This document shows positions 8,069 to 36,289 of a stretch of 64,000 nucleotides of DNA, piece by piece (the stretch's first letter is position 1; each line of letters begins with the position of its first letter). The translations under genes and the position numbers were made by a program. The notes beneath the pieces are model-generated. The model ran no database searches. It was not told the DNA's origin and saw only the letters and a program-made list of their open reading frames with translations. Source of the stretch: Acidimicrobiales bacterium (GTDB lineage Bacteria; Actinomycetota; Acidimicrobiia; Acidimicrobiales; SZUA-35); assembly GCA_020630195.1 (NCBI GenBank), contig JAHDBV010000002.1, positions 62,001 to 126,000 of the forward strand. The letters run 5' to 3'.

Positions 8069-9394
8069 ATGGCTCGGTTGCGCGCGCTCCTGGATCGACG
8101 GTGGACGGTCGTGTTGTCGATCGCCGCCGGCGCCACGGTGCTGCTGATCGCCGTCGGCGTCTACACGATGGCAGCCCGGGCGGCGGAGACGAACGAGCAG
8201 GCCGCAGCGCTCTACCTGGCCGACGAGACCATCCGCACGATCGAGATCGCGGATGCCCGGGCCCGCCAGCTCGTGATGCTCACGTTGCTGTCGCGCGACG
8301 GGTTCGAGACCACGTCGGCCCGACAGGACAGCCGCACCGAGTTCGACACCGCCGTGGACGACGCGAGATCGGGCATCGTCGCCCTCGTCACCGTCGGCAT
8401 GCTCGACGAGGCGGCGCTGACGTCCCTCGACGATGCCGAGCAGGGCATGGTCGGTGTCTCGAGCGAGCTGGCCTCCGCCGAGGATCTCACCGCACTCACG
8501 TCCATGCGGCGAGACGTGCTCGAACCACTCGCGGCGACCGCCGACGCGGTCGCCGCCGACCGGGACGAGCTCCTGGATCGGATCGACGCGACCTCGGACT
8601 CGTTGCGGGCCGTGGCGACCCTCGTCGGCTTCGTCGTCGCCTTCGTGGTGCCGACCGTCGCCGTCGTCGTCCATCGGGTCGCCACACGCCCGGGTCGCCT
8701 CGAATCGGAACTCCGGGCGGATCTCGGGTCGGTCGAGGACCGGCTGAGCGACGTGACGCGGGGCGCGGAGGATCTGATGCTGCACCGCGTCGTCGAGCCG
8801 CTCGCCGATGCGGTGGAGGGGCGGACGACCACGACGCTGCATCCGGGGCTGCGTGAGGCCGATCGCGGCGCCCAGCGAGTGCTGCTCCTGCTCCGGCTCG
8901 GCAACGGCACGCTCGACGTGGTCCCCGCCGCGATGCCGCTCGCACCGATGCTCGAGCGGGTGTCGACCCGCCACGACGTTCCCCTGCGGGTTCGTGACCT
9001 CCCGGGCCAGATCCTCACGGACCCGACGCTGCTCGAGTGGTGTCTCGACGAGCTCGTGGCCAACGCCTGCGCCCACGGGTCCGCCGCGGAGCTCGAGGTC
9101 GCCATCGCGGAGGACGGTGTGGCCCTGTCGGTGATCGACCACGGCGTGGGTCTCCCGCCGGAGGTCGCCGGTCTCGTCTTCGGTCGCCGCTCGGCGGACC
9201 GTCAGCGTCGTGCCCGCCGAGGAGAGTTCGCGACAGGGCTCCTGCTCGTCGCCTCCGTGGCCGAACGACTCGGCGGTCGCCTCGAGCACGAACGGCGGGA
9301 CGGCATGACCCGACTCACGATCCGTGGCGCCGCATTGGTCGACCACAGCCGGCGTTCGGGAGCTCGTGAACGACGGAGGACGGTGCCTTCGTGA
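8069..9394 (+). CDS. Two-TM histidine-kinase-like ATPase, cassette copy 1
   Basis: A 441-aa membrane protein: TM1 about 12-34, an extracytoplasmic helical domain about 35-180, TM2 about 182-204, then a cytoplasmic part. The C-terminal half has a HATPase fold: N-box ELVANACAHG (Glu328, Asn332), G1 box DHGVGLP (Asp357), and a shortened G2 segment ATGLLLVASVAERLGG. No HExxTP-type phosphoacceptor box is present. The only cytoplasmic His shared with the paralogue is His258 in an HPG motif, followed by a Leu-rich helix. The layout recalls Streptomyces conservon CvnA-type proteins, but no CvnB-D partners are present. The ATG at 8069 follows a GAACGGGG stretch. Its stop overlaps the GTG of the giant gene (GTGA at 9391-9394), so the two are translationally coupled. 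A role in sensing or supporting the giant surface protein is inference. Confidence 0.7.
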   Translation: MARLRALLDRRWTVVLSIAAGATVLLIAVGVYTMAARAAETNEQAAALYLADETIRTIEIADARARQLVMLTLLSRDGFETTSARQDSRTEFDTAVDDARSGIVALVTVGMLDEAALTSLDDAEQGMVGVSSELASAEDLTALTSMRRDVLEPLAATADAVAADRDELLDRIDATSDSLRAVATLVGFVVAFVVPTVAVVVHRVATRPGRLESELRADLGSVEDRLSDVTRGAEDLMLHRVVEPLADAVEGRTTTTLHPGLREADRGAQRVLLLLRLGNGTLDVVPAAMPLAPMLERVSTRHDVPLRVRDLPGQILTDPTLLEWCLDELVANACAHGSAAELEVAIAEDGVALSVIDHGVGLPPEVAGLVFGRRSADRQRRARRGEFATGLLLVASVAERLGGRLEHERRDGMTRLTIRGAALVDHSRRSGARERRRTVPS

Positions 9395-18300: not shown

Positions 18301-21300
18301 GGCGCGACCACGATCGAGGTCCCCGTGCCCGGGACCCCCGGCGAGGTCTTCAGCGCCACCGTCACCCGCGAGCTCGCCGGCGGCTCGTACGGGTCGACGT
18401 CGGAACTCTCACCCGCCGTCACGGCGATCGTCCCGCCGAGCCTCGTGGTCAACGACACCGGCGACGCCGTGGATCTCGTGCCCGGCGACGGCGCCTGTGA
18501 CACCGGCGCACTCAACACCGCAGGAGCGCCGGCCTGCACGCTGCGAGCGGCGCTCCAGGAAGCGGCCGGCGGAGGAAGTGTGTCGATCCTGTTCGACCTC
18601 CCCACCACCGAACCGGGCCGGACCCCGTGGGGCTGGGCCATCACGCCCGCCACGACGCTGCCCGTCGTGCCCGACGCCGTCTCCGTCGACGGATCGAGCC
18701 AGCCGGGAGCGGGGCCGGGCGCACCGGTCGTCGGTCTCGAACTCGGGACCGGAGCGGTTCTCGAACTCGGCTCGTCGACGACCGTTCGCGGCCTCGCCAT
18801 CGTGGGTGGGACGAGCGAGAGTCTGCTGATCGACGGTCGGAGCTCGGTCGTGGTCTCCGATCTGGTGGTCGGCGGTCGCCCCGACGGCTCACGCCCGGCC
18901 TCGGCGGCCGCGGGGATCCGGATCCGCTCCTCGGCCGACGTCCGAGTGGGCGACGCCGGTGGTCACGTCGTCGTCCACGGCCGGTCCACGGGTGTCGTCG
19001 TCGACGGCGCCTCCGGGGCGGTCCAGCTCGACGGCCTCGTCGTGGGCTCCGATCCGACCAGTCGCCCCCAGGTCGCACTCGACGTCGACGGGACCGGCGC
19101 CGATGTCGTGGTGATCGACGCCGAGGCGTTTGCGACCGCCACCATCGTCTCGGCCGACGGCACGACGAGTGTCCAGGTACTCGGTGGACGCCTCGGCGTG
19201 CGCGGCGACGGCGGCACCGAGCCGACCGCCGAGGTCGTCGTCGCGGTGGCCGGTGCGGCGTCGGCCACCATCGGCGGCACCGGTCCCGGTGAGGGTGTGA
19301 TGCTCGGCGGTCACGGCCGCGCCGGCATCGTGCACCGCTCGACGGGCACGGTCGCCGTCCGCCGGTCGAGCATCGAGGCCCGCCCGGGTGGCGCCGCGGC
19401 CGCGCCGATCGACCTCGGTGACGACGGCCCCACCGCCAACGATCCGGGTGACGGCGACGGCGGGCCGAACGGCCGGCTCAACCACCCGGAGCTCGATGTG
19501 GTCGAGCTCGACGGCGTCCTGACGGTCGCGGTCACGATGGACGCTCCCGCCGGCGCCTACGAGGTCGAGGTCTGGCGAGCCGGGGAGGGCAACCACCCGA
19601 GGACGCTGCTCGGCGTCGTGAACCTCCTGCTGACGGCCGGGCCCGAGACCGTCGAACTGACCGCACCCGGTGCCGTCGGTGACCGGCTCGTGGCGGTCGC
19701 CACGGCGACCGGAGCCCCGCCGACCTCATCGGAGGTCTCCCCGGTCGCGACCGCCACGCCCGGCAATCAGGCCCCGACCGTCGTCGCCGCCACGGCCTCG
19801 ACCACGGCCGAGGGCGGCGCCGCGGTGGTGCGCGCCGACGTCGTGGACCCCGACGGCGACCCACTGACTGTTCGTTGGGATCTCGATGGCGACGGCGGGT
19901 ACGACGACGCCGACGGTCCCGTCGTCGCCCTCGACTGGTCCGACCTCGTCGCGCTCGGCATCGATGACGACGGGTCCCGCCCGATCGGCGTCCGTGTCGA
20001 CGACGGCCGGACCGTCGTCACCGCCTCGACCACCTTGATCGTGCTCGACACCCCACCGGAGCTCTCGTGGAGTGGTCCGGTCGAGATCGCCGTCGACCGC
20101 GAGGCCACCTTCGGGCTGCGGGCCGTCGACCCCGGGCGGGATCCGATCGTGGCCTGGGACGTCGAGGGTCTCGGCAACGGCGTCGAACGGCGATCCGACG
20201 TGGGCGCCGACGGAGGTCTGGAGGTCCGCGGTGCGTGGGCGTCCACCGGGCGGCGGACGCTGCGCGCCTGGGCGATCGACGCGGACGGCCTGCGCACCGG
20301 ACCGGTCGAGTTCGTCGTGACGGTCACGCCGGGACCCACCGGCGACCCCGTGGCCGACCGCTACCAGACGCCCGAGGACCGGACGCTCGTCGTACCCGCG
20401 CCCGGGGTGCTGGCGAACGATCCGCTCGGGACCGGTCCCGTGGCGCTCCCCGGCGACGTCGACGAGATCGTCACCACCGCAGGTCGGTTCGTGCTCGCCC
20501 CGGACGGATCGTTCGAGTACGTGCCCTCCCCGAACTGGTCGGGCGAGGCACGCTTCTCCTACGAGACCGCCGAGGGACGAGCCGTCACCGTCGTGATCAC
20601 CGTGACGGCGGTGAACGATCCCGCCGATCTCACCGTCGACCGCGCACCGCGAGACCCCGAGACCGGGCTCCGCTCGATCGAGATCCTCGACGTCGACGAC
20701 GGGGACTACGAGATGATCCTCGAGCCGACCGGTGTCACCATCGGGTGGGCGCCCACACCGGGGGTGGAGGTCGTCGAAGGAGCGGACGGCTCGGTCACCG
20801 CGACCGGGTCCCGGGAGGCGCTCGAGCGGTGGATCGCCACCCTGACCAGCCTGGAGGACACCGACGGCGAGGCATCCGTGGTCGTGACCCTGACGGAATC
20901 GACGCCCGACGGCGACCGTCTCCCGCCCCGGCGGGCGATCATCGAGATCGCGGGCGGGGCGCAGGACACCTCCTCGGCGGAACTCCTCGACGGGATCATC
21001 GTGTTGCCGGGTTCACCGGACGAAGAGCCGCCCGACGCGCTCGCAGCCGTCGCGATCGAGACGGGGACACTCCGGGAACTGCCCTCGGTCACCCGGGCAC
21101 TGGCCGTCGCGATCCTCGAACTGATCTCCGACCCGGCGGTCCCTCGGCGGACGTTGTCGGCGGGCACGGCCTGGTTCCTCGGCATCACCTGGTTCGTCGT
21201 GTGGCGGCGACGTCTCCGTCCGGTGCTCCGGGTGGTCGACGTCGTGCCGGGGGAGACCCTCGAGGTCACCGCCCGACCGGGCTCGGGTCCGGTGGTGTTC

Positions 21301-21468: not shown

Positions 21469-21551
21469 CGCCGATCCGGCGCAGCGTCGTCGGTTCCCGG
21501 GGTCCGGGCCCCCGGCCTTGAGGGGCTGCCTCCGCTGCCGATGGAGCCCGG

Positions 21552-22889
21552 ATGGCCCCGATCACACGATTCCTCCAGCGGCGATGGACGCTGATCGTCC
21601 CCGTGGTGGCGGGGATGACCGTGCTCGTGCTCGCGATCGGCGTCTACACGATGGCGGCCCGTGCCTCGACCACGAACGAGCAGGCGGCGGCGCTCCATCT
21701 CGCCGACGAGTCGATCCGTTCCATCGAGATCGCGGACGCGAGGGCCCGCCAGATCGTGCTCCTCACCTTGCTGAGCGGCGACGGCGTCGAGGTCGCCAGC
21801 TCGCTGGAGCGCAGCCGCGCCGACTTCGACCTCGCGCTGGACGATGCCGAGCTCGGTCTCACCGCGCTCCGCACGCTCGCACCCGACGATGCCTCGAGTG
21901 CCCTGCTCTCGGCCGCCAGCGAGGACCTCGTCGCGGCCTCGGCCGGACTCGACGACGTCGTCCGGTCGGTCGACGCCGACGACCAGGCGGGAGCGCTCGA
22001 GCGGTTGTCGACCGCCGTCGTCGGCCCGTTGGGGGAGGCGGCGGGTCACGTGGCGGTGGATCGCGATCACCGGATCGACGAGCTCGACGCCACGGCCGAT
22101 GCGCTCCAGGCCGTCGCCACACTCGTCGGCTTCATCGTCGCGTTCATCGTGCCGACCGTGGCCGTCGTGACCTATCGGGTCGCCACCCGCCCGGGGCGCG
22201 ACGAGGCGTTGCTGCGGACCTCGGTCGTCGACCTCGACGAACGGCTCGCCGATCTCGGACGTGGCGCCGAGGATCTCACGCTCGGATCGATCATCTCGCC
22301 GCTCCGTGACGCCGTCGCGGGCCGCGACCCCTCCGCGGTGCATCCCGGGATCGGCCAGGCGTCTGCCGGGGCCGAACGACTCCTCCTGCTGCTCCGATCG
22401 ACCAACGGTTCGATCGTCGCCCGACCCGAAGCGGTCGACCTCGCTCGTCTCGCCACCGACGTCGGCGCCCACCACGATCTCCCCGTCTCGGGATCGGGCG
22501 GTCGGGTGGTCGCCATCGCCGATCCCCAGCTCCTGCGATGGAGCGTCCAGGAGCTCATCGCGAACGCCGTTCGGCACGGCCACGCGCCGGCACTCGAGCT
22601 CGCGACCGACGGTGCCCGCGCCTCGCTCGTCGTCGTCGATCGTGGTGCGGGCCTGCCGGCCGAGGTCGCGGAGATCGTCTTCGGCCGCCGGTCGTCGGAC
22701 GCGAAACGCCGAGCCCGGCGGGGCGAACAGGCGACGGGGCTGCTCCTCGTCGCCCACCTCGCCGATCGGATGGGTGGCGCACTGACACACGAGCGCCGCG
22801 GCAACGAGACCCGGGTCCGCTTCGACCTACCGGCATCGTCGGATCTCGAGCGCCTTCCGAGCCCCGATGCCCGGAGGGTGCCTTCGTGA
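21552..22889 (+). CDS. Two-TM histidine-kinase-like ATPase, cassette copy 2
   Basis: The 445-aa paralogue of the gene at 8069 has the same topology: TM1 about 12-35, extracytoplasmic domain about 36-188, TM2 about 189-208, and a cytoplasmic ATPase-like domain with ELIANAVRHG (Glu334, Asn338) and DRGAGLP (Asp363). The segment just outside TM1, from TNEQAAAL to ADARARQ, is almost identical between copies, which suggests a shared ligand or partner site. The position of His239 in copy 1 is not His here; only the HPG histidine (His264) is shared. GGAG at 21543-21546 lies 5 nt before the ATG. The stop overlaps the next GTG. The 83-bp gap from the first giant gene holds only a weak GC-rich hairpin, so all four genes could form one transcript. 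Confidence 0.7.
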   Translation: MAPITRFLQRRWTLIVPVVAGMTVLVLAIGVYTMAARASTTNEQAAALHLADESIRSIEIADARARQIVLLTLLSGDGVEVASSLERSRADFDLALDDAELGLTALRTLAPDDASSALLSAASEDLVAASAGLDDVVRSVDADDQAGALERLSTAVVGPLGEAAGHVAVDRDHRIDELDATADALQAVATLVGFIVAFIVPTVAVVTYRVATRPGRDEALLRTSVVDLDERLADLGRGAEDLTLGSIISPLRDAVAGRDPSAVHPGIGQASAGAERLLLLLRSTNGSIVARPEAVDLARLATDVGAHHDLPVSGSGGRVVAIADPQLLRWSVQELIANAVRHGHAPALELATDGARASLVVVDRGAGLPAEVAEIVFGRRSSDAKRRARRGEQATGLLLVAHLADRMGGALTHERRGNETRVRFDLPASSDLERLPSPDARRVPS

Positions 22890-25800
22890 CCGTCGGGCTC
22901 CTCCTCGCCGACCGCACCACACGTCGTTCGCCCCGAACCCGGGTCGGGCGACGTCGTCGCGTCGGGGGAACCCGATCATGGGTGATGCGAGGGGGCACGG
23001 CGGGGCTCACGCTGTTCCTCGCGGTGATCCTGACCGGTGCCCTCGGGAGCCGCCCGGGCGCCGCGTTCGCCCACTGCGCCGACGGCGACGGCGACGGCGT
23101 GTGTGACGTCTACGAACTGGGCGACACCGACGGCGACGGCACGCCGGACGCGGCCGACACCGACGACGACGGCGACGGTCTCGCCACCGTGATCGAAGGC
23201 GCCGACCCCGACGGCGACGGACACCCGACCGACGCCGTCGACTCGGACGGCAACGGCCGAGCGGACTATCTCGAGTGGACGGCCGCCTCGGCCGGGGCCC
23301 CCGCCGACCGCTCCACCTCGCTCGGCTCGGGAAGCGGCGGCTTCGGCGGCGCGCTCGCCGACGGCGACGGCTTCGGCACCTCCGTGGCCGCGATCGGCGA
23401 CCTCGACGGCGACGGCGGTGTCGATCTGCTGGTCGGCGCACCCGGGAGCGATGTCGGGGGCGTGGACGCCGGTGTGGTCTGGTTCATCTCACGCGACGCA
23501 TCCGGGACCGTGACGGGTGAGGTCCGCCTCGACAACACGGTCCACCCGGACATCGACGCAGGCGACGGGTTCGGGACCGCCGTCGCGATTCTGGGTGATC
23601 TGGACGACGACGGCGAGGTCGCCGTCGCCATCGGTGCACCCGGCGAGGACGGGCCCGGTTCCGACAGCGGTGCCGTGTACGTCCTCGATCTGAGCGGAGC
23701 CGGTGTCGTGTCGTCGGTGGAGAAGATCGACGGCTCCGACCTGACCATCGTCGATGCCGGAGGGCTCTCCGGCGGCGAACGGTTCGGGTCGGCGCTGGAC
23801 GGCCTCGGCGACATCGACCGGGACGGGCAGCCCGACCTCGCCGTCGGCGCCCCGTTCCCGGGGGCCACCTCCGCCGGGGAGACCTGGCTGCTCGCACTCG
23901 GCGCCGACGGCCGACCCCTCCAGGCCTCCCGTCTCGTCGCCGGCGACCTCACCTCGGTCACCCTCGCCAACGGCGACCGCTTCGGTTCCTCGCTCGCATC
24001 GTTCGGAGACCTCGACGGCGACGGAGTCCGTGACCTCGCCATCGGGGCCCCGGGCCACGACGACGGGGGCGGCGACGCCGGTGCCGTCGTGCTCGTCGAG
24101 CTCACCTCGACCTTCGGACGACAGAACGACCATGTGCTGTCGGCCTCGGTCGGCGACCTCGCCACCGCACCGGTGGCCGGCGACGAGTTCGGCTCGGCGC
24201 TGAGCCCGACCGGCGACCTGGACCGCGACGGTGTCGCCGATCTCCTCGTCGGGTCCTCCGGCGCCGACGACGGTGATCCGGACGCCGGCGCCATCGTGCT
24301 GCTCTCGTTGCGGACCGACGGCGCCGTGGCCGAGACCACGCGGTTCTCGGCCACCACGGGCGTCACCGGGCCCATCACCTCCGCGGGCGATCACTTCGGC
24401 ACCGCGATCGCGTTCCTCGGTCACGCACCCGACGGTGGGCCACGCCTCGTCGTCGGCTCACCCGGTGACGACGGAGGTGGTCCGGATCGGGGGAGCGTGG
24501 ACCGGCTGCGGCTCCGGCCGACGACACTGCGGGTCACCTCGACGGGCGACGAACCCGACAACGACCCGGCCGACGCCCACTGCGCGACGGCGAGCCTCTT
24601 CCCCGACGGCACCGCCACCTGCACCCTCCGAGCGGCGATCCAGATGGCGAACGACGCGTCGAGCACCGTCGGCTGGATCGAGTTCGCACTCCCGACCTCG
24701 GACCCCAACCACGAGGCGTCCCCGCTGGTCTGGACGATCTCCCCGGCGTCCCCGCTCCCGAACATCAACCGCTCGATCGTCATCGACGGCGGGAGCCAGC
24801 CGGGCCAGGCCGCCACCGGGCGACCCGTCGTACGCCTCGACGGCGCCGCCGCCGGCGACACCCGCGGCCTCGCCGTGACCTCGAACGGCTCGGGCATCAA
24901 TCAGCTCCTCGTCACCAACTGGCAGGCCGCCGGTGTCGTGTGGACCGGCGACGACGGGGCACTCGGTCGATCCTGGCTCGGGCTCGACGAGTCGGGCAGC
25001 AGCAACGGCAACGAGTTCGGTCTGTTCGTGCGCGGCGATCGGCTCCGGGTCACCGAGAGCGTGATGTCGGGCAACACCTTCGAGGGCATCTTCGTCGACA
25101 CGACGGCGAACTCCATCGAGGTCTACGACACGAAGCTCGGTACGGACGCAACCGGACTCGCCGCCCGCCCCAACGCCGGCGAGGGGCTCGAGATCGTCGG
25201 GGGCGACGGTCACATCGTCGGGGAACCCGGGCGGGGCAACCTGATCTCCGGCAACACGCTCGGCGGGATCCGCGCCACCGGAACCAGCACGAACGTGACC
25301 GTGCAGGCCAACGCCATCGGCACGGCGGCCGACGGCACGCCCCTGCCCAACACGAATGCCGGCGTCAACATCCAGGGTGGCACCGATTGGCTCCTCGGTG
25401 GTCCGGCGGCCGGTGAGGGCAACACCATCGCCCACAACGACCACGACGGGGTCAAGATCGAGGGCACCAGCCAGCGCATCGCCGTGCTCGGCAATCAGAT
25501 CCGCGGCAACGGCGCCCTCGGGATCGACCTCAGCGACGGCGAGGCGTTCCCGTTCATCAACGCCATCGATGCGGGTGACGCCGACACCGGCCCGAACGAT
25601 CTCCTCAACACGGGTGTGATCACCTCGGCCGAGGTCACCGGCTCGACCGCCGAGCTCGACGTCGAACTCGACCTGCCGGCGGGCCTGTACCGGGTCGAGG
25701 CGTTCACCAACCCGGGCGGTGTGAACCCCCGCGGCGCGGGCGACGGCGAGGTGTTCGCCGGTGCGACGGGAATCAGCCACGCCGGCGCCGGCGCGCAGAC

Positions 25801-28800
25801 CTTCCCGGTGACCGCCTCGGCTGTCGTCGGCGATGACCTCACGATCACCGTCACCCAGGACTTCGGCGGCGGGTCGTACGGCGCCACGTCGGAGTTCTCC
25901 GCAGCCGCCCAGGCCGTGCCCTCCGCCACCCTCGTGGTGAACGACGGCGGCGATGCCGCCGATGCGACCCCCGGTGATCAGGCGTGCGACACCGGCGCCC
26001 TCAACCCGCTCGGACAGCCCGCCTGCACGCTCCGCGCCGCGATCCAGGAGGCGAACGCCTCGGCGGGCGCGATCGACACGATCGAGTTCGCGCTCACCGT
26101 CGCCGACCCGGCTCGTCTCCTGACGCCGCACGAGCACTGGTCGATCCGTCCGACCACGGCACTGCCCGCCGTGACCCAGAGCATCCTCATCGACGGCCTG
26201 AGCCAGAGCGGGGCGACACTCGGCACCCACGTGTTCCCGGCCCCCATCGACTCGGTGTTGACCGTGGAACTCGACGGTCGAGACCTCGTCGCCGGCGCCG
26301 GGCTCCGGCTGGAGGCCACGAACTCCCACGTTCGTGGACTCGCCGTGAACAACTTCGGCAACGGCTTCGCCGGGATCGAGCTGGCCGGAGCCGACGGTCG
26401 GTTGGAGGCGTCGTATGTGGGTGTCGGCGTCGACGGTGCCACACCGGAGTCCAACACGGTCGGCATCACCGTCGGCGGAGAGCGCGTGATCGTGGGAGGC
26501 CGCGATCCGGGTGACGGGAATCTGCTCGCCGGTCCCACCACCGTGCAGATCAGCGCGTCGAACGTCGTCTTCCGCGGCAACCTGGTCGGCACCGACCGAA
26601 CCGGCACGACGCTGCTCGAGGGGCTCTCGAACGCCGTCATGCTCTTCAGCGGTGACGGGATCCAGATCGGCGGCTCGCTCACCGGCGACGGCAACCTGAT
26701 CAACGGCGGCACCACCCACAACCTCTGGGAGAACTCGACTCCCACGAACACCGAGATCCGCGGCAACCGGTTCGGTACGACCCTCGACGGATTGTCCTCG
26801 ATCGGCAGCTCCGGCAACGTCTTCCTCAACGGCACCGACACCGTGCTCGGTGGGGCGGGCGCCCTCGAGGGCAACGTCATCGCCAGCACCACGACCGCGT
26901 CGTCCGTGATCGTCCAGCCGTCCGCCGTTCGTGCCGTCATCGACGGGAACACCATCGGCCTGGGCGCCGACGGCACGACGCCCGTCGGGGCTGATGGCGG
27001 CCTCCTGATCCGGGGCGACGACACCATCGTCGGGGGTGAAGGGACCGGGATCGGGGTCGGGAACCGCATCGCCCACACCGACGGCCCGGCCATCACCGTC
27101 GACGGGGCGCTCGGGGTCAGCATCATCGGGAACGAGATCAGCACCGTCGGTCCGAACGCCACGACCCTCGGCATCGACCTCGGCGCCGACGGCGTGACGC
27201 CCAACGACGTCGGTGACGGGGACACGGGGCCGAACGACCTGCTGAACCATCCGGTGATCACCGCCGTCCAGGACCTCGGGGTGAACGTGCGCGTCGACTA
27301 CTCGGTGGACCTGCCCGCCGGGACCTACCTGCTCGAGCTGTTCGCGAATCCGTCCGGAGTCGGCCCGGAGGGCCATGGTCCCGGCGAGATCCTGCTCGGG
27401 AACACGGGAATCACCGTCGCGGCGCCCGGAACGGTCACGGGGTTCGTGAACCGACCCGGGGACGCGAGCCAACCGATGAGCCTGGTCGTCACCGAGGATC
27501 TCGGTGGCGGTGACTACGGATCGACATCCGAATCGTCGCTCAGCCGGAGTCTCCCCGACGGGACCCACCTCGTGAACTCGACGGGCGACACGACGGACGT
27601 GAACCCGGGCAACGGGTTCTGCGACACGGGCGCGCTCAATTCGGCCGGTCATGTCGAGTGCACACTCCGAGCCGCCATCCGGGAGGCCGAAGCCTCCGGC
27701 CACACCTCCATCGAGTTCGACATCCCGACCACCGACACCGGGTTCGTCGGGGGCACGTGGACGATCCAGCCGACGAGCCAACTGCTCGTCACCGACGGAC
27801 TCGACATCGATGCCACCACCCAACCGGGCTACGGCGGTCTGCCCGTCGTCTTCCTCGACGGGACGAACAGCCCGGCCGGCGACGGACTCCGACTGAGCTC
27901 CACCGCGGTCGCCGCGCGCATCGCCGGCTTCGCCATCGGCAACTACACCGGCGTCGGAGCGAACGGCATCGAGATCAATGCCGCCGACGTCGTCATCGTC
28001 GCGAACCACCTCGGCGTCGACCCGTCCGGCACCACGATCCAGCCGCTCGGTGATGCCACCGTGCAGGTCAACGGCGGCGGTGACGCCGTCATCGGCGGCA
28101 CGGCCGCCGCCGATCGCAATGTCATCGGTGGCACGAACGGGATCCTGGTGAGTGGCGGGGTCCCGCGGACGCGGATCATCGGCAATCTCATCGGTGTCGG
28201 CGCCGACGGGCTCTCCGATGTCGGCGGCACCGGCAGCGGCGTGCGCCTCACGGGATCGGCGACCGACACCGAGATCGGCGGCACACTCGCCGGTGAGGGC
28301 AACGTGATCGGCGGGTGGGACGCCCACGGCGTCGATCTCGACGGCGCGGGGCTCAGTGACACCAGCGTCGCCGGGAACACGATCGGGATCTCGGCCGACG
28401 GCGTCACGCCCATCGGCCTCGGCGGTGACGGCGTGCGCATGTTCGGAGCGATGACCCCCGTCGTCGTCCGGGACAACGTCATCGGCAACACCGACCGGGG
28501 CATCGCGATCGGCACCTCGGCCACGGGGGTGTTCGTCTCCGGGAACACCCTCGGCACGAACACCGCCGAGACGATCGCCCACCCGATCGGGCGCTCGGGT
28601 ATCTCGGTCTCGAACGGCGCGACGAGCGTCCGGATCGGCGACATCGGCCCCAACCTGATCACCAACACGGGCCTCAGCGACCCGGCGGCCGCCGCGATCG
28701 AGGTGGTCGGGGCCACGACCGACGACATCGCCATCGTCAACAACCGCATCTTCGACAACGCCGGGCTCGGCATCGACCTCGGCGGCGACGGTGCGACGGC

Positions 28801-31800
28801 GAATGATCCCGGTGATGGTGACGCCGGACCGAACTTCGGGCAGAACGCGCCGGAGATCGTCTCCGTCGTCGTGGTCAACCCGTCGCAGGTCGAGGTCACC
28901 TTCGACCTCGACACGACGACCGGCAACTACCTGGTGGAGCTGTTCGACAATCCCGGCGGGGCGGATCCGGTTCGAGGAGAGGGCGAGGTGTCCGTGGGCA
29001 GCACGGTGGTCAGCCACGCCGGTGGCGACATCCGCCTCACGATGACCGTGCCCGGTGACGCCGGGTCGCTCATCACCGCCACGGCCACCGAGTACATCTC
29101 GCCGTCGGTCTACGGCGCCTCGTCGGAGTTCTCCGAGGCCGTTGCCGTCTCGGCCGCCAACCAGGACCCGGTGGCGACCTTCACCCAGCCGCCGGACATC
29201 GCGGAGGGCGATGGCGTGACGCTGGACGCCAGCTCCTCGAGCGACCCCGACGGCGATCCACTGGCCTTCACCTGGGACCTCGACGCCGACGGCCAGTTCG
29301 ACGACGCGACCGGGCCGACACCGTCGGTCACCTGGGCGCAACTCCAGGCCCTCGGCATCGATGACGACGGCACCCATCCGATCTCGGTCCGCGTCGACGA
29401 CGGCCGCGGCGGCACCGTCGACGCGCTCCGGCAGCTGACCGTCACCGACACCGAGCCGACCGTGACCATGAGCGGTCCGGCGAATCCCGTCGCCGGCCAG
29501 CCGGCCGTCTTCATCATCGGCGTCACCGATCCTGGTGCCGACACCATCACCGACTGGGCCATCGACTGGGGCGACGGGACACGCACGACCGGGACCGGTT
29601 CACCGACCACGGCGACCAAGACATGGACCGGCCCGGGAACCCACGGCATCACGATCCAGGTGGTCGACGAGGACGGCACCCACACCGACGGCGACCTGGC
29701 CATCCCGCTCGCAGCGGCCGGCCAGCTCGCCATCATCGACCCGGCGGGTGGTGTCACGATCGACACCGCCGGCGGATTCCCGGTCAGCCCCACCGATGTC
29801 GTGCCGTTGCCCGACGGCGACTGGCTCGTGGCCGACTCGACCGGGGGCGCCGTGGTCAGATTCGCGTCCGACGGCACACCTCTCGGCACCGTCATCAGCG
29901 GCGTCCCGCAGGTCAGCGCACTCGCACTCGCGCCGGATGACGACGTGCTCGTCGGTTTCGGGACCGAGGTGCGACGGTTCGACATCGCGACCGGTGCGCA
30001 GGTGTCCGTGCTCGTCACCGGCGTCGGCGAGGTCGCCGACCTGCTCACCGGAGCCGACGGCACCTTCCACCTCGCCGATCCGGTCGACGGCCTCGTCGGC
30101 CGCTACGACGTCGACACCGGCGCCTTCGCCTGGACCAGCGCCCCGGTCGGGTGGGAGCCCACGGCGCTCGCGTTCGCTCCCGACGGCTCCCTCGCCGTCC
30201 TCCAGGGCGACACCGGGGCGATCACGAGACTCGACGCCGACTCGGGCGCACCCCTGCCGGACCTCGTGGCCCCCGGCACCCCCGGCTCGGATGCGCGGGG
30301 TCTCGCCGTGCAGCCCCTCGGTCTCCTCGTCCGAGCGGTCGACACCGCCGACGAGATCCGCTCATTCGACGGTGACACGGGTGCACCGATCGGCCTGTTC
30401 ACCTCCTTCACCGGCGACGCCGATCCGGGAACCCCGACGCTGCGCCCCAACCGCTTCGCTCGGGTCGGTGCCAGCCCCGGCATGATCGTGAACACCACGG
30501 CCGACGACGGAGATCTCGCCCCCGGTGACGGTGTGTGCGACACCGGGCAGCTCAACGCCACGGGTGCGGTGGCATGTTCGCTCCGCGCCGCACTCGAGGA
30601 GACCAACGCCAATCCGGTCGTCGACACCATCTCGTTCGACATCCCGACCGCCGACCCCGGCCACGCGGGCGGCCGCTGGACGTTGCGTCCGCAGAGCGCC
30701 TACCCCGACATCACCCGGGGCGTCGTGCTCGACGCGACGACACAGCCCGGCGCCGACCCGGCCCCACGCGTCGAGCTCGACGGGCTGAACGCCGGAGCGG
30801 GCCAGACCGGCCTCACGGTCGACACCGGTGGTGCCGGGAGCCGACTGTCCGGACTGGCCGTCGTCGCCTACGGAGGCGACGGCATCGACATCCGGGCCGA
30901 CGGTGTCGTGATCACCGACGTCTCGGTCGGTCTCCGTGCCGATGGCACGACGACGAGTGCGGTCAGCTTCGACGGGATCCGGGTCCTCGGTGCCGACGAC
31001 GTCGTGATCGGTGGCCCGGCAGGCACCGGCCGGGTGCTCCTCGGCGCCATCACGAACGGCATCAGCGTCCTCGGCGCCGACGACACCACGATCCGGAACA
31101 CGTGGATGGGCCTCGACCGCGCCGGCGCCGCCGTCACCGGCCCGCTCACGAGCGGCGTGGTCGTCACGGGCGACTCGAACCGGACGATCATCGGCGGACC
31201 ATCCGACGACGACGCCGTGATCATCGCCTCGTCCGGCTCCCACGCCATCAGCCTCTCCGGCCCCGACGTCGCCGTCACGACCGTCGAACGGGTCCGCCTC
31301 GGCGTCCTGCCCGATGACGGCGCCGGCACGATCGGTGGACACGCCGTGCTCGCCAACGGCGCGACCGATGTGACCGTGGTCGACGTCGTCGTCGGCAACA
31401 CCGTCGGGGAGGGCGTGCGCTTCGTCGACGTCGCCGGCGGAACGATCCGGGGCAGCCTCATCGGCGTCGACGGAACGGGCGGCGCCCACCCGATCGGCGG
31501 CGCCGGCGTCCGGGCGTCGGGAGCGACGAGGGACGTCATCGTGGGCGGAGCCGGCCCCGGCCTGCCGAACGCGATCCGCAACAGCACCACCGGCGTGGTC
31601 GTCGAGGACACCGCCGATGGCGTGGCGGTCGTGGGGAACAGCATCGCGGCCTCCTCCGCCCTCGGCATCGACCTCGGCAACGACGGTGTCTCGGCCAACG
31701 ACCCCGGCGACGGCGACACCGGACCCAACACCCTGCTCAACCACCCCGAACCCGTCTCGGCCGTGTTCGACGGAGCGACGACGCTCCTCACGTTCGACCT

Positions 31801-34800
31801 CGACGTGCCCGCCGGCACCTACCACATCGACGTCTTCGCGAACCCCTCCGGCGTCGATGCCGCGGCGGGAGAAGGCGAGATCCTCCTCGCCGAGGACCGT
31901 CTCGCACATGCCGGCGCGGGTGCCGAGCGCGTCGTCCTCTCCGTTCCGGGACTGCCCGGCGACCGCCTCACCCTCACCGCCACGGCCTCGGCCAGCCCCG
32001 GTGTCTACGCCGCCACCTCCGAGTTCTCGGCCGACGTCGCCGTGGTCTTCCCGATCGCCACGGTCAATTCGACCGGGGACACCGACGACCTCGATCCCGA
32101 CGACGGGCTCTGTGACACCGGCGGGACCAACTCCGCCGGGACGACCGAATGCACGCTGCGGGCCGCGCTGACGCACGCGAACGCCTCGCTCGACGTCGAC
32201 ACGATCCACTTCGCGATGCCGGCCACCGAGCCCGGCCACGCCGGCGGAGTGTGGACGCTCGCCCCGGCGGGCGGGCTCCCCGAGGTGTCGATCCCCGTCA
32301 CCATCGACGCCGGCACCCAGGCCGGGGCCACGCCGACCACCGTCTCGGCGCCCGGCCCCGTCGACGGTCGACCCGTGGTGCGACTGGATCCGGCCTCACC
32401 CGACGTCACACTGCCGGTGACGGCGGATGACACGATCGTCCGTGGCCTCGCGCTCGTCGGTTCGGCCCGGGTCGAGGTCGGCGGCGACCGCTTCACACTC
32501 GTCGGCTCGTTCGTGGGCCTCGAACCCGACGGTGTCACCGGGTCCGGCGGGTTCGCGTCACCGCTGATCGTCCGGGGCGCGGACGCCGGGATCGGTGGGG
32601 CGAGCCCGGCCGATCGCAACGTCTTCGGCGCCGCGGGCGGGCCGCTGGTGCTCGAGGGGGACGGCGCCGTCGTCGTCGGCAACCGGTTCGGCACCACGGC
32701 ACCCGGCACGCTGGTGATCGGACCCGATCGGCCGGCGGTACTCGTCCAGGGCACGTGGAATCGGATCGGCGGCACCGACCCGGCGTTGGCCAACGTGATC
32801 AGCGGCGGCGGGACCGGTGTGGCCATCGAGTCCGGTGTCGGCAACGCCGTCATCGGGAACGTGATCACGGCGAACGCCAGCGGACTCGGGATCGACCTGA
32901 CCACACCCGGCCTGCTCGACGGTGTGAGTGCGAACGATCCGGGCGACGCCGACGCCGGGGCCAACAACGGACTCAACCATCCCGTCATCACCTCCGCCGT
33001 GGCATCCGCCGGCACCGTCACGGTCGAGGCGTCCCTCGACGTCACCGACGGTGACTACCGGATCGAGTTCTTCGGCAATCCGAGCGGTTCGGACCCGTCG
33101 GGCCACGGCGAAGGCGAGGTGTTGCTCGCGGCCCGAACCCTCACCGTCGCCGGTGGTATGACGGCGACGTTCCAGATCCCCGGCGCCCCCGGGGACGAGA
33201 TCACGGCCACCGCGACCCGCATCAACCTCGGCGAGCACCGCTCCACGTCGGAGTTCGGGCCGATCGTCGTCGCGACGACGGCGCCGTTCGTGGTCGTCAA
33301 CGACGTCGGTGACGCGGCCGACCTGGTCCCGGGCGACGGCGCCTGTGACACGGGGGGCCTCGCCGTCGACGGGAACCCCGAGTGCACACTGCGAGCGGCC
33401 CTCGCCGAAGCGGCCGCGTCGACCGGGCCCACCGAGGTCCGGTTCGACCTGCCGGGTGCCCAACAGGGTGCGTTCGGGTGGACGATCGCACCGGGCACCC
33501 CGCTGCCGATCGTCGGCCCCGGCGTCTCGGTCGCCGGTTCGAGCCAGAGCCCCGGCGAGACGCCGGTGATCGAACTCGATCTCGCCACCTCCGGCGCCCT
33601 GGTGCTCGCCTCCGACGTCGTGGTCGAGGGGCTGGCCGTCACCGGGGCCTCGCTCGAGATCGACGGCGCCGATCGCGTCGTGGTCCGCGACCTCGATGTC
33701 GGCTTCGCGCTCGACGGCACACCCAGACCGGTCACGGTCGGGCTGCTGACCCGCAACAGCACCGACGTCGACATCGGCGTCGCCGATGCGCCCGTCGTCG
33801 TCGCGGCGACCGCCGCCGCCGTTCGGATCTCCGGCTCCGCCGACGACCTCCGACTCGACGGGCTGGTCGTTCCGCCGGCATCGGCACCCGCCGTCGCCGT
33901 GGACATCGACGCAGCCGGTGGCCGGATCGACATCGACGGGGCCTCCCTGTTCGGCACCGACCGGGTGGTGGTCATCGACGGCTCCGTCGACGTCGGCATC
34001 ACGGACAGCCGGATCGGTGTCGACGACAACGGTGACACGCCCGTCGTCGCCGCCGTTGCGATCGAGATCGACGGTTCCGGCCGAACGGTCCTCGGTGGAG
34101 GCTCCGTCGCCGAGGAGGTCCACCTCGGCGGCCACACGAACTCCGGCGTGCAACAGGCCGCCGGTGCCACCGGCTCCGTTGCGCTCGAGCATGTCCACGT
34201 CACCCCACATCCGACGGCGGATGCCCCGCTCGCGTTCGACATCGGCGGCGACGGGCCGGACACCAACGATCCCGGGGACGGCGACACCGGCCCCAACGAC
34301 CGCCTCAACCATCCCGAGTTCACCATCACCGAGACCGATGGGGTCCTGCGGTTCGACATCGACCTCGACGTCCCTGCCGGCACCCACCGCGTCGACATCC
34401 ACCGCAGCGACGGTCCCGGCCGGGTCGCCAGCCGGGTGCTCACCTCCACGATGGTCACGGACGGCACGCCGACGAACGTCGTGCTCACCCTCCCGGGTAC
34501 CCCCGGCGATCGATTCGTCGCCACCGTGACCCGGGTCGACGGACCGGGGGAGCGGACCTCGGAGTTCTCCGTTCGGATCCCCGCCGTGCGCGGCAACCGG
34601 GCGCCGGACGTGAGCGCACTCGTCGCCGGACCGGGCAGCGAGGGCGCCGACATCGTGCTCCGGGCCGATGCGACCGACCCCGACGGCGACGCGCTGACCG
34701 TCCGGTGGGACCTCGACGGTGATGGCGTCCACACCGATGCGATCGGGCTCGAGGTCGTCGTGACGTGGGATCAGCTCGTCGCACTCGGCCTCGACGACGA

Positions 34801-36289
34801 CGGCACGTTCCCCGTCACCGCACGCATCGACGACGGTACGGTCGCCCTGGAGCGAACCACCACCCTCGTGCTCACCGACACCACGCCGACCCTCGTCGCC
34901 GTGGGGCCGACGACCTCGATCGTCGGCCGCACCGACGTCATCACGGTGCTCGTCACCGACCCGGGCGACGACCCGGTCACCGGTTACGAGGTCGAGTGGC
35001 GCCACACCTCCGCTGACGGCTCGGTCGAGCGGAGTTCCGCATCGGGATCCGACGACGGCGACGGACGCTTCTCGGTCTCGCGCACGTGGCCGACCCCGGG
35101 CCGCACCGAACTCCTCGTCTGGGTCGTCGACGACGAGGGGCTCCGCACCGGCCCCACGACGGTGCTCGAGGTCACGATCGCCCCGGAGACCGTCGTCGAC
35201 GACGGCGAACCCGTCGACGACGCCTACCAGACCCCCGAGGACACCGAACTGGTCGTCGAGGCACCCGGCGTGCTCGCCAACGACGGCGGGACCGGTGACG
35301 TCACGCTGGTGGCGGCACCTCCAGTCGGGGACCTCACCCTCGCCGACGACGGCTCGCTCCGGTACCGACCCTCCCCGAACTGGCACGGCACGACCACCGC
35401 CGTCTATCGCCGGGGCGACGGCGCCACCGCCACGATCTCCATCACCGTCGCGCCGGTCAACGACCCGGCCACCGTGTCGGCCTCCGGCGCTCCGGAACCG
35501 ACCGATGCGCTCCGGACACTCCGGATCGACGATGTCGAACCCGACGGGAGCTATCGACTGACGCTCACCATCGGCGAACTCGATCTCCGTTGGGCCGACA
35601 TCGCGGGTCTCGACATCGTCGAGCGCGACGGCGAGGTCGAGGTGACCGGCTCGGGAACGGCCCTCGCCGCCTGGATCGCCTCGCTCGAGACCAGCCACAC
35701 GTCCGCCGATGCACCCATCGACGTGGCCGTCGAGCTCGTCGACCTCGGCACGGACGGCCGGGCGCTGCCGGCCCGTCGTGTCGTCATCGCGCTCGGCGGA
35801 CGAGCCGAGCCGACGCCCACACCGTCGGAGCTCGTCGATGCCCTCGTCGATCTCGGAACCGACACCGACGCCGCACCGGACGCCCTCGCCTCGGTCGACG
35901 ACGACGGTGGCGGTGGCATCACCGCCCCGCCCACGACCCGCCGACTCGCCATCGCCATCCTCGAGCTCATCTCGAACCCCGCCGTGCCACGGCGCACGCT
36001 GGCACTCGGCAGTGGCTGGTTCGTGGGCATCACCTGGTTCATCGCCTGGCGACGGCGCCGCCGACCGATCCTGCGCATCACCGGTGCACCCGTCGGGTCC
36101 GACGTCGCCGCCACCGTCCGACCCGGGGGAGAGGCGGTCGGCTTTCTGCTCCGCTGGGACGCCACCGGCCTGGTCGCGACGGGCCGACGGCGGGCACGGG
36201 GTCGCTGGATCGAGATCGAGACCCCGGCCGGTCCGGGCTGGGTTCCCGGCGATCGCGTCGAGATCATGCCGGCCAGCACCACGAGCTGA
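22886..36289 (+). CDS. Giant modular surface protein with six CSLREA/beta-helix modules, copy 2
   Basis: The GTG at 22886 overlaps the upstream stop and gives 4467 aa. Domain order mirrors copy 1: a long basic N-region and signal peptide ending near GAAFA; DGDGDGVCD-type calcium repeats; six FG-GAP repeats such as FGTSVAAIGDLDGDG; three CSLREA/beta-helix modules; PKD-like domains (from about 2090) and a beta-propeller (about 2280-2528); three further modules; PKD-like domains (from about 3900); an Ig-like domain with YQTPEDTELVVEAPGVLAND (from about 4105); a TM helix (about 4372-4388) and a 79-aa basic tail ending with GWVPGDRVEIM. It is 442 aa longer than copy 1, about one module. The open frame continues upstream to 22538, but that part overlaps the kinase-like gene and lies before the signal peptide. 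Function unknown; cell-surface adhesion or sensing is inference. Confidence 0.8.
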   Translation: MTVGLLLADRTTRRSPRTRVGRRRRVGGTRSWVMRGGTAGLTLFLAVILTGALGSRPGAAFAHCADGDGDGVCDVYELGDTDGDGTPDAADTDDDGDGLATVIEGADPDGDGHPTDAVDSDGNGRADYLEWTAASAGAPADRSTSLGSGSGGFGGALADGDGFGTSVAAIGDLDGDGGVDLLVGAPGSDVGGVDAGVVWFISRDASGTVTGEVRLDNTVHPDIDAGDGFGTAVAILGDLDDDGEVAVAIGAPGEDGPGSDSGAVYVLDLSGAGVVSSVEKIDGSDLTIVDAGGLSGGERFGSALDGLGDIDRDGQPDLAVGAPFPGATSAGETWLLALGADGRPLQASRLVAGDLTSVTLANGDRFGSSLASFGDLDGDGVRDLAIGAPGHDDGGGDAGAVVLVELTSTFGRQNDHVLSASVGDLATAPVAGDEFGSALSPTGDLDRDGVADLLVGSSGADDGDPDAGAIVLLSLRTDGAVAETTRFSATTGVTGPITSAGDHFGTAIAFLGHAPDGGPRLVVGSPGDDGGGPDRGSVDRLRLRPTTLRVTSTGDEPDNDPADAHCATASLFPDGTATCTLRAAIQMANDASSTVGWIEFALPTSDPNHEASPLVWTISPASPLPNINRSIVIDGGSQPGQAATGRPVVRLDGAAAGDTRGLAVTSNGSGINQLLVTNWQAAGVVWTGDDGALGRSWLGLDESGSSNGNEFGLFVRGDRLRVTESVMSGNTFEGIFVDTTANSIEVYDTKLGTDATGLAARPNAGEGLEIVGGDGHIVGEPGRGNLISGNTLGGIRATGTSTNVTVQANAIGTAADGTPLPNTNAGVNIQGGTDWLLGGPAAGEGNTIAHNDHDGVKIEGTSQRIAVLGNQIRGNGALGIDLSDGEAFPFINAIDAGDADTGPNDLLNTGVITSAEVTGSTAELDVELDLPAGLYRVEAFTNPGGVNPRGAGDGEVFAGATGISHAGAGAQTFPVTASAVVGDDLTITVTQDFGGGSYGATSEFSAAAQAVPSATLVVNDGGDAADATPGDQACDTGALNPLGQPACTLRAAIQEANASAGAIDTIEFALTVADPARLLTPHEHWSIRPTTALPAVTQSILIDGLSQSGATLGTHVFPAPIDSVLTVELDGRDLVAGAGLRLEATNSHVRGLAVNNFGNGFAGIELAGADGRLEASYVGVGVDGATPESNTVGITVGGERVIVGGRDPGDGNLLAGPTTVQISASNVVFRGNLVGTDRTGTTLLEGLSNAVMLFSGDGIQIGGSLTGDGNLINGGTTHNLWENSTPTNTEIRGNRFGTTLDGLSSIGSSGNVFLNGTDTVLGGAGALEGNVIASTTTASSVIVQPSAVRAVIDGNTIGLGADGTTPVGADGGLLIRGDDTIVGGEGTGIGVGNRIAHTDGPAITVDGALGVSIIGNEISTVGPNATTLGIDLGADGVTPNDVGDGDTGPNDLLNHPVITAVQDLGVNVRVDYSVDLPAGTYLLELFANPSGVGPEGHGPGEILLGNTGITVAAPGTVTGFVNRPGDASQPMSLVVTEDLGGGDYGSTSESSLSRSLPDGTHLVNSTGDTTDVNPGNGFCDTGALNSAGHVECTLRAAIREAEASGHTSIEFDIPTTDTGFVGGTWTIQPTSQLLVTDGLDIDATTQPGYGGLPVVFLDGTNSPAGDGLRLSSTAVAARIAGFAIGNYTGVGANGIEINAADVVIVANHLGVDPSGTTIQPLGDATVQVNGGGDAVIGGTAAADRNVIGGTNGILVSGGVPRTRIIGNLIGVGADGLSDVGGTGSGVRLTGSATDTEIGGTLAGEGNVIGGWDAHGVDLDGAGLSDTSVAGNTIGISADGVTPIGLGGDGVRMFGAMTPVVVRDNVIGNTDRGIAIGTSATGVFVSGNTLGTNTAETIAHPIGRSGISVSNGATSVRIGDIGPNLITNTGLSDPAAAAIEVVGATTDDIAIVNNRIFDNAGLGIDLGGDGATANDPGDGDAGPNFGQNAPEIVSVVVVNPSQVEVTFDLDTTTGNYLVELFDNPGGADPVRGEGEVSVGSTVVSHAGGDIRLTMTVPGDAGSLITATATEYISPSVYGASSEFSEAVAVSAANQDPVATFTQPPDIAEGDGVTLDASSSSDPDGDPLAFTWDLDADGQFDDATGPTPSVTWAQLQALGIDDDGTHPISVRVDDGRGGTVDALRQLTVTDTEPTVTMSGPANPVAGQPAVFIIGVTDPGADTITDWAIDWGDGTRTTGTGSPTTATKTWTGPGTHGITIQVVDEDGTHTDGDLAIPLAAAGQLAIIDPAGGVTIDTAGGFPVSPTDVVPLPDGDWLVADSTGGAVVRFASDGTPLGTVISGVPQVSALALAPDDDVLVGFGTEVRRFDIATGAQVSVLVTGVGEVADLLTGADGTFHLADPVDGLVGRYDVDTGAFAWTSAPVGWEPTALAFAPDGSLAVLQGDTGAITRLDADSGAPLPDLVAPGTPGSDARGLAVQPLGLLVRAVDTADEIRSFDGDTGAPIGLFTSFTGDADPGTPTLRPNRFARVGASPGMIVNTTADDGDLAPGDGVCDTGQLNATGAVACSLRAALEETNANPVVDTISFDIPTADPGHAGGRWTLRPQSAYPDITRGVVLDATTQPGADPAPRVELDGLNAGAGQTGLTVDTGGAGSRLSGLAVVAYGGDGIDIRADGVVITDVSVGLRADGTTTSAVSFDGIRVLGADDVVIGGPAGTGRVLLGAITNGISVLGADDTTIRNTWMGLDRAGAAVTGPLTSGVVVTGDSNRTIIGGPSDDDAVIIASSGSHAISLSGPDVAVTTVERVRLGVLPDDGAGTIGGHAVLANGATDVTVVDVVVGNTVGEGVRFVDVAGGTIRGSLIGVDGTGGAHPIGGAGVRASGATRDVIVGGAGPGLPNAIRNSTTGVVVEDTADGVAVVGNSIAASSALGIDLGNDGVSANDPGDGDTGPNTLLNHPEPVSAVFDGATTLLTFDLDVPAGTYHIDVFANPSGVDAAAGEGEILLAEDRLAHAGAGAERVVLSVPGLPGDRLTLTATASASPGVYAATSEFSADVAVVFPIATVNSTGDTDDLDPDDGLCDTGGTNSAGTTECTLRAALTHANASLDVDTIHFAMPATEPGHAGGVWTLAPAGGLPEVSIPVTIDAGTQAGATPTTVSAPGPVDGRPVVRLDPASPDVTLPVTADDTIVRGLALVGSARVEVGGDRFTLVGSFVGLEPDGVTGSGGFASPLIVRGADAGIGGASPADRNVFGAAGGPLVLEGDGAVVVGNRFGTTAPGTLVIGPDRPAVLVQGTWNRIGGTDPALANVISGGGTGVAIESGVGNAVIGNVITANASGLGIDLTTPGLLDGVSANDPGDADAGANNGLNHPVITSAVASAGTVTVEASLDVTDGDYRIEFFGNPSGSDPSGHGEGEVLLAARTLTVAGGMTATFQIPGAPGDEITATATRINLGEHRSTSEFGPIVVATTAPFVVVNDVGDAADLVPGDGACDTGGLAVDGNPECTLRAALAEAAASTGPTEVRFDLPGAQQGAFGWTIAPGTPLPIVGPGVSVAGSSQSPGETPVIELDLATSGALVLASDVVVEGLAVTGASLEIDGADRVVVRDLDVGFALDGTPRPVTVGLLTRNSTDVDIGVADAPVVVAATAAAVRISGSADDLRLDGLVVPPASAPAVAVDIDAAGGRIDIDGASLFGTDRVVVIDGSVDVGITDSRIGVDDNGDTPVVAAVAIEIDGSGRTVLGGGSVAEEVHLGGHTNSGVQQAAGATGSVALEHVHVTPHPTADAPLAFDIGGDGPDTNDPGDGDTGPNDRLNHPEFTITETDGVLRFDIDLDVPAGTHRVDIHRSDGPGRVASRVLTSTMVTDGTPTNVVLTLPGTPGDRFVATVTRVDGPGERTSEFSVRIPAVRGNRAPDVSALVAGPGSEGADIVLRADATDPDGDALTVRWDLDGDGVHTDAIGLEVVVTWDQLVALGLDDDGTFPVTARIDDGTVALERTTTLVLTDTTPTLVAVGPTTSIVGRTDVITVLVTDPGDDPVTGYEVEWRHTSADGSVERSSASGSDDGDGRFSVSRTWPTPGRTELLVWVVDDEGLRTGPTTVLEVTIAPETVVDDGEPVDDAYQTPEDTELVVEAPGVLANDGGTGDVTLVAAPPVGDLTLADDGSLRYRPSPNWHGTTTAVYRRGDGATATISITVAPVNDPATVSASGAPEPTDALRTLRIDDVEPDGSYRLTLTIGELDLRWADIAGLDIVERDGEVEVTGSGTALAAWIASLETSHTSADAPIDVAVELVDLGTDGRALPARRVVIALGGRAEPTPTPSELVDALVDLGTDTDAAPDALASVDDDGGGGITAPPTTRRLAIAILELISNPAVPRRTLALGSGWFVGITWFIAWRRRRRPILRITGAPVGSDVAATVRPGGEAVGFLLRWDATGLVATGRRRARGRWIEIETPAGPGWVPGDRVEIMPASTTS
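24524..34590 (+). repeat. Six internal CSLREA/beta-helix modules in giant protein 2
   Basis: Modules start near 24530, 25933, 27571, 30485, 32062 and 33292. The first has a degenerate opening (HCATASLFPDG before CTLRAA); the others keep CDTG and C(T/S)LRAA. A PKD/propeller insert lies between modules 3 and 4. Module 3 resembles module 2 of copy 1 most closely, and module 6 resembles module 5 of copy 1. Confidence 0.75.

Follow-up and report, generated by a model that had tools for sequence, protein, structure and literature searches.

Two overlapping genes, one for a histidine-kinase-like (HK) membrane protein and one for a giant exported protein, occur twice in succession in a draft genome of an Acidimicrobiales bacterium, which raises the question of whether the two proteins act together and what they would report to the cell. 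The window analyzed here, a stretch of 64,000 nucleotides with a GC content of ~71%, comes from contig 99 of the genome (4.9 Mb, 82% complete). Both pairs lie on the forward strand, at 8069–21468 and 21552–36289, in the direct tandem arrangement described by the initial annotation. The first starts with HK1 (441 aa, 8069–9394), a two-TM protein with a helical sensor, the TM2 motif FVVAFVVPTVAVVVHR, a DHp hairpin and a CA domain. Its TGA stop overlaps the GTG start of giant 1 (4025 aa, 9391–21468) by 4 bp, GTGA, at 9391–9394. Likewise, a GTGA overlap at 22886–22889 joins HK2 (445 aa, 21552–22889), a paralog of HK1 with Gly in place of the H-box His and a degenerate G2 box, to giant 2 (4467 aa, 22886–36289), the start of which was taken at 22886 (the mechanical ORF begins earlier, at 22538). 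Both overlaps had been recognized previously, as had the Val-Pro-Ser (VPS) C-terminus of HK1 and HK2, which the translations confirm.

The two giants share one architecture: an N-terminal hydrophobic signal segment, a repeat ectodomain, one C-terminal TM, and an Arg-rich stretch followed by a cytoplasmic tail of ~70 aa. In giant 1 the ectodomain holds TSP3-like Asp-rich repeats, FG-GAP repeats, CSLREA/beta-helix blocks, and PKD, NHL, and Big_9/cadherin-like domains; a rod shape is plausible from the beta-helix, Ig, and PKD repeats. The last 130 aa, comprising the TM helix and an SH3-like tail, are encoded at 21076–21465 in giant 1 and at 35897–36286 in giant 2, and are of a type found in partners class-wide. 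The hydropathy of this TM is weak in the window giants (<1.6), and a helix is present there in the AF2 prediction. A scan for promoter and terminator consensus at the starts of both cassettes found none, a result that is uninformative at the GC content of the window, and no c-di-GMP riboswitch or other Rfam RNA was detected in the window.

HK1 and HK2 are 51% identical and the giants 42–44%. A recent repeat or an assembly artefact was rejected, as the copies are this divergent (42–51%), both are open, and G001, the only genome of the same genus that was searched, has a single-copy orthologous locus between the same genes. G001 carries two HK/giant pairs, one of them at the locus orthologous to the window (the genes on either side match by sequence), where it has one cassette versus two in the window. 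In the HK tree, the G001 copy is joined to HK1 (support 97/94) and HK2 falls outside; the duplication therefore appears to predate the divergence of the two genomes, a cassette having been lost in G001. The giants agree with the HK tree, giant 1 being 54% identical to that of the ortholog (L026) and 44% to giant 2. A third copy exists in the same genome as the window, with its HK on contig C134, its giant ended by the contig end, and a matching C-terminal end on C150.

To see how general the pairing is, relatives of the HK were sought with an alignment restricted to the sensor and TM2, so that generic kinases were avoided. They were found in 57 of 395 genomes of the class Acidimicrobiia and hardly anywhere outside it. 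By ORF inspection, as opposed to curated annotation, and with many partners cut by contig ends, an exported protein directly follows the HK in 18 of the 19 testable HK genes of the order Acidimicrobiales; at the exception (L139) an unrelated lipoprotein-like gene follows, and L143 was left out of this count for want of downstream room. Counted in the same way, the rest of the class has an exported partner after the HK at 39 of 42 loci (21 times with a 4-bp overlap, and with no partner at L121, L132, and L133). Many of the loci in the two counts lie on MAG contigs, and related genomes are not independent. The arrangement is not due to chance, since it recurs in >50 loci at HK identities down to ~20%. 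As a control, ordinary HisKA kinases of the genome under study were inspected over the ~1 kb visible downstream: after the 23 that were readable come response regulators and other genes, and no such giant.

Nearly all complete partners have one clear C-terminal TM. The window-type tail occurs in 26 of the 57 HK-positive genomes versus 3 of the 338 HK-negative ones (Fisher p 1e-21, kinship ignored), so that 26 of the 29 genomes with the tail also bear the HK. Across 12 pairs, of which three were put together from separate contigs by inference, HK and tail distances are correlated at r=0.96 (0/5000 permutations), a match that co-inheritance of overlapping genes alone would be expected to produce. 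The interpretation in the initial annotation is supported in part. Its proposal that HK and giant function as a pair withstands the check suggested there, given the near-constant presence of such a gene after the HK across the class, the near confinement of the tail to HK-bearing genomes, the matching distances, and the frequent 4-bp overlaps. Frequent solo occurrence of the HK in relatives, named there as evidence against a pair, was not seen, an HK without a partner being very rare. That the genes are mere operon neighbors, sharing regulation without forming a functional complex, seems to us highly improbable: 4-bp overlaps are common in compact operons, and here ordinary kinases too form them with other neighbors, but a class-wide pairing, the rarity of the HK alone, and co-duplication paralog by paralog speak against it.

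What persists in the partner is not the part that had been expected. An exported partner does follow nearly every HK, as anticipated, but the CSLREA/FG-GAP rod is not its constant part; this is the TM and the tail. Ectodomains vary totally among partners (FG-GAP, beta-helix, LamG lectin, LRR, Ig/He_PIG, cadherin, or nothing recognized), and sizes range from 328 to >5500 aa. The largest partner gene seen (L119:1-16528, minus strand) is open for >5500 codons and is still cut by the end of the region. The persisting parts are the HK sensor with TM2, the partner TM and, often, the ~70-aa cytoplasmic SH3-like tail. Variability outside combined with constancy inside, as read from these sequences, is typical of a receptor. 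FG-GAP/CSLREA was rejected as a defining trait, FG-GAP being absent from many partners and present in genes of the same genome for which no HK relative was found. The other FG-GAP genes of this genome lie on C191, C135, and C151, contigs on which no HK relative was detected, and show no window-type TM and tail.

For the tail, AF2 predicted the TM helix followed by a seven-strand barrel in SH3-like order, the final strand being preceded by a short helix (pLDDT 73.5). The best PDB matches were Abl SH3 and a C. perfringens SH3b domain, with an E value of 0.02 at best, and no Pfam match was obtained; the model is therefore only suggestive of an SH3-like barrel. Window-type tails are recognizable in partners of kinases with a canonical core outside the order (L100, L104, and L105). 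These three partners carry a further domain of ~150 aa after the SH3-like tail, with no Pfam match, and a similar-looking stretch is found in secreted proteins (L076, L078). Three other partners of canonical kinases, all encoded on the minus strand, have a TM followed on the cytoplasmic side by a cold-shock domain (PF00313) above the cut-off: L120:13538-16555 (1.9e-10), L125:7249-14073 (1.1e-13), and L127:9656-16405 (1.1e-9). This domain is absent from the window copies, and some partners in the class have short tails only. The tail search also matched, in many relatives, secreted lipoprotein-like genes with SH3b-like domains (L071, L073, L074, L079, L084, and L085), which resemble the tail; they were not seen linked to an HK and were rejected as partners.

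The description of HK1 and HK2 as kinase-like holds for their fold. HATPase_c was matched above the curated cut-off in both (4.2e-13 in HK1, 1.6e-13 in HK2), and in the AF2 model of HK1 both the DHp hairpin and the CA domain are complete (pLDDT 87), the nearest Foldseek matches being HK853, CpxA, RetS, and DivL (E ~1e-9 to HK853, CpxA, and DivL). It does not extend to the phosphoacceptor, which is mostly absent in the order, where a diguanylate cyclase usually accompanies the module. Outside the order, HKs have a canonical SHELRTPL H-box, N and G1 motifs, and a mostly intact G2 box; a response regulator was seen upstream of the module at two of these canonical loci (L099 and L126) by sequence inspection and is not general. 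In Acidimicrobiales, the His column holds a non-His residue in 16 of 18 aligned members. A single change on the tree accounts for the split between canonical and degenerate forms (85/87 support, with some long branches). Degeneration was preferred to a full deletion of the H-box, since the His is in register in HK1 and in its ortholog L026. In L139 and L142–L144, a His lies a few residues downstream of the column.

Because the His is kept in register, residual kinase activity is possible in HK1, as far as can be read from its sequence. HK1 might even be an active kinase working through H239 with an unlinked response regulator, leaving only paralogs such as HK2 as pseudokinases. H239 and a PL motif in register in HK1 and L026, together with the N and G1 boxes kept in HK1, fit this explanation, but HisKA was not matched in HK1 (or in HK2) even at E 1, Arg replaces the acidic residue after the His, and the GxG of the G2 box is lost in both window HKs; we regard it as improbable. 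Judging by motifs, ATP binding is not lost in every member of the order, since the N, G1, and G2 motifs are well preserved in L137–L144. At the other end, L110, L111, and L098 have badly eroded ATPase motifs and still form part of a pair. This persistence, like the translational overlap, which favors co-translational assembly, would suit an HK that serves only as a chaperone or anchor for insertion of the TM of the giant and has no signaling role. An assembly factor would have no need, however, of the full canonical core (H-box, N, G1, and G2) that most of the class retains, and we give this possibility little weight.

The cyclase link comes from the adjacent upstream gene, which in the order is a multi-TM GGDEF protein at 16 of 20 HK genes; half of the 16 are divergent, and the other eight share an operon with the HK, which they overlap by 4 bp. 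Eight of these neighbors were confirmed by Pfam (E 7e-33 to 2e-44). The genome under study has 36 GGDEF hits in its 4.9 Mb, which makes the probability of adjacency by chance negligible even when kinship is taken into account. In L138:8382-20631 and L142:8337-12704, cyclase, HK-like protein, and surface protein apparently form a three-gene operon, the first two genes overlapping by 4 bp. The HK genes without a GGDEF neighbor are the window tandem, its G001 ortholog, and L094, which lies on a short contig. Upstream of the window tandem and of the ortholog there is a monooxygenase-like gene instead. Since no cyclase lies within 8–10 kb of either, c-di-GMP output is not directly supported for the window copies, and since these copies lack the cyclase, its link to the module could not be seen by the initial annotation.

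The linkage could also be read in the opposite direction, with the HK-like protein and the linked cyclase controlling whether the giant is displayed, anchored, or shed, in the way that LapD/LapG act on LapA. The large adhesin-like ectodomains and the GGDEF linkage would agree with such inside-out control, and it is well established that c-di-GMP controls large adhesins (LapD, PMC3032545; PMC6890996). However, inspection of the neighboring genes recognized no LapD-like receptor or LapG-like protease, only the multi-TM GGDEF protein in the order; the partners are single-pass membrane proteins and not type I-secreted outer-membrane adhesins; and no GGDEF gene was seen at the canonical loci, where the upstream room is often only 1.4 kb. 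Inside-out control is in our judgment unlikely, if less so than the kinase and assembly alternatives above.

Our preferred reading is a class-wide module of a surface receptor and a kinase-derived coupling subunit, the output of which in Acidimicrobiales has moved from phosphotransfer towards c-di-GMP, a shift suggested by the loss of the phosphoacceptor together with the cyclase linkage; we put the chances of this reading at about even. Pairing, frequent translational overlap, congruent inheritance, constant membrane and tail parts beside a variable ectodomain, canonical kinases outside the order, and H-box degeneration and cyclase linkage within it are documented here by sequence comparison. 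We infer a physical complex, an outside-in direction, and, in the order, an HK that acts as a coupling pseudokinase setting the activity of the linked cyclase. The partner would be exported and held by its one C-terminal TM, with the variable ectodomain as sensor or adhesin and the tail, in many cases a small beta-barrel, in the cytoplasm. The HK-like protein would be its dedicated membrane partner, passing the state of the giant inward. Outside the order, the module would work as an ordinary two-component input; in Acidimicrobiales, the coupling pseudokinase would set c-di-GMP levels through the cyclase and thereby an attachment program. For the window tandem, this would require a cyclase acting in trans, e.g., the neighbor of the third copy, on C134. 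The pair may then be a surface sensor or adhesion system that reports contact to the inside, as the initial annotation proposed. A more specific version, offered tentatively, is an adhesion-receptor-like system in which giant ectodomains evolve freely, the TM stays constant and bears an SH3-like or cold-shock tail, signals pass through a dedicated HK, and the pseudokinase of the order couples surface engagement to the co-encoded cyclase.

Several known systems resemble parts of the module. It shares with HisKA/HATPase_c kinases that have accessory membrane sensors a helical extracytoplasmic sensor, two TMs, DHp and CA domains and, in members from the rest of the class, the H, N, G1, and G2 boxes, but it differs in the dedicated exported and TM-anchored partner directly downstream, the degenerate H-box of the order, and the rarity of an adjacent response regulator. 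Among atypical kinases, DivL is a repurposed kinase that couples signaling pathways (PMC4211667, PMC5361649), and HK1 keeps the DHp and CA fold of DivL and RetS (Foldseek 4q20, 6dk7); kinship is nevertheless seen only at the level of the general HK fold, and the module has a giant surface protein, a cyclase in the order, and a different membrane sensor. The Lap system (LapA, LapD, and the cyclase GcbC) likewise ties a very large surface protein to c-di-GMP (PMC3032545, PMC6050961), whereas here a C-terminal TM anchors the partner, the tail of which is SH3-like, and a kinase-derived subunit stands in place of LapD. Integrin alpha-like receptors have an FG-GAP ectodomain, a single TM, and a short tail, an analogy only, as FG-GAP is optional in the bacterial family and no integrin-type second subunit was identified. 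DivL-type pseudokinases and the Lap giant-adhesin system are the nearest concepts, and neither defines the HK/partner family, no description of which was found in the open-licence literature searched. We regard the module as a variant of two-component sensing that may plausibly be more than this.

Giant repeat-rich surface proteins of environmental actinobacteria are mostly without a known role, and a large set of them is now tied to a signaling subunit and, in one order, to c-di-GMP. The SH3-like and cold-shock tails on the cytoplasmic side of these surface proteins are unexpected and provide concrete interaction targets. Furthermore, the natural series from working to degenerate kinase within one conserved module makes the role of a pseudokinase after the loss of catalysis directly testable.
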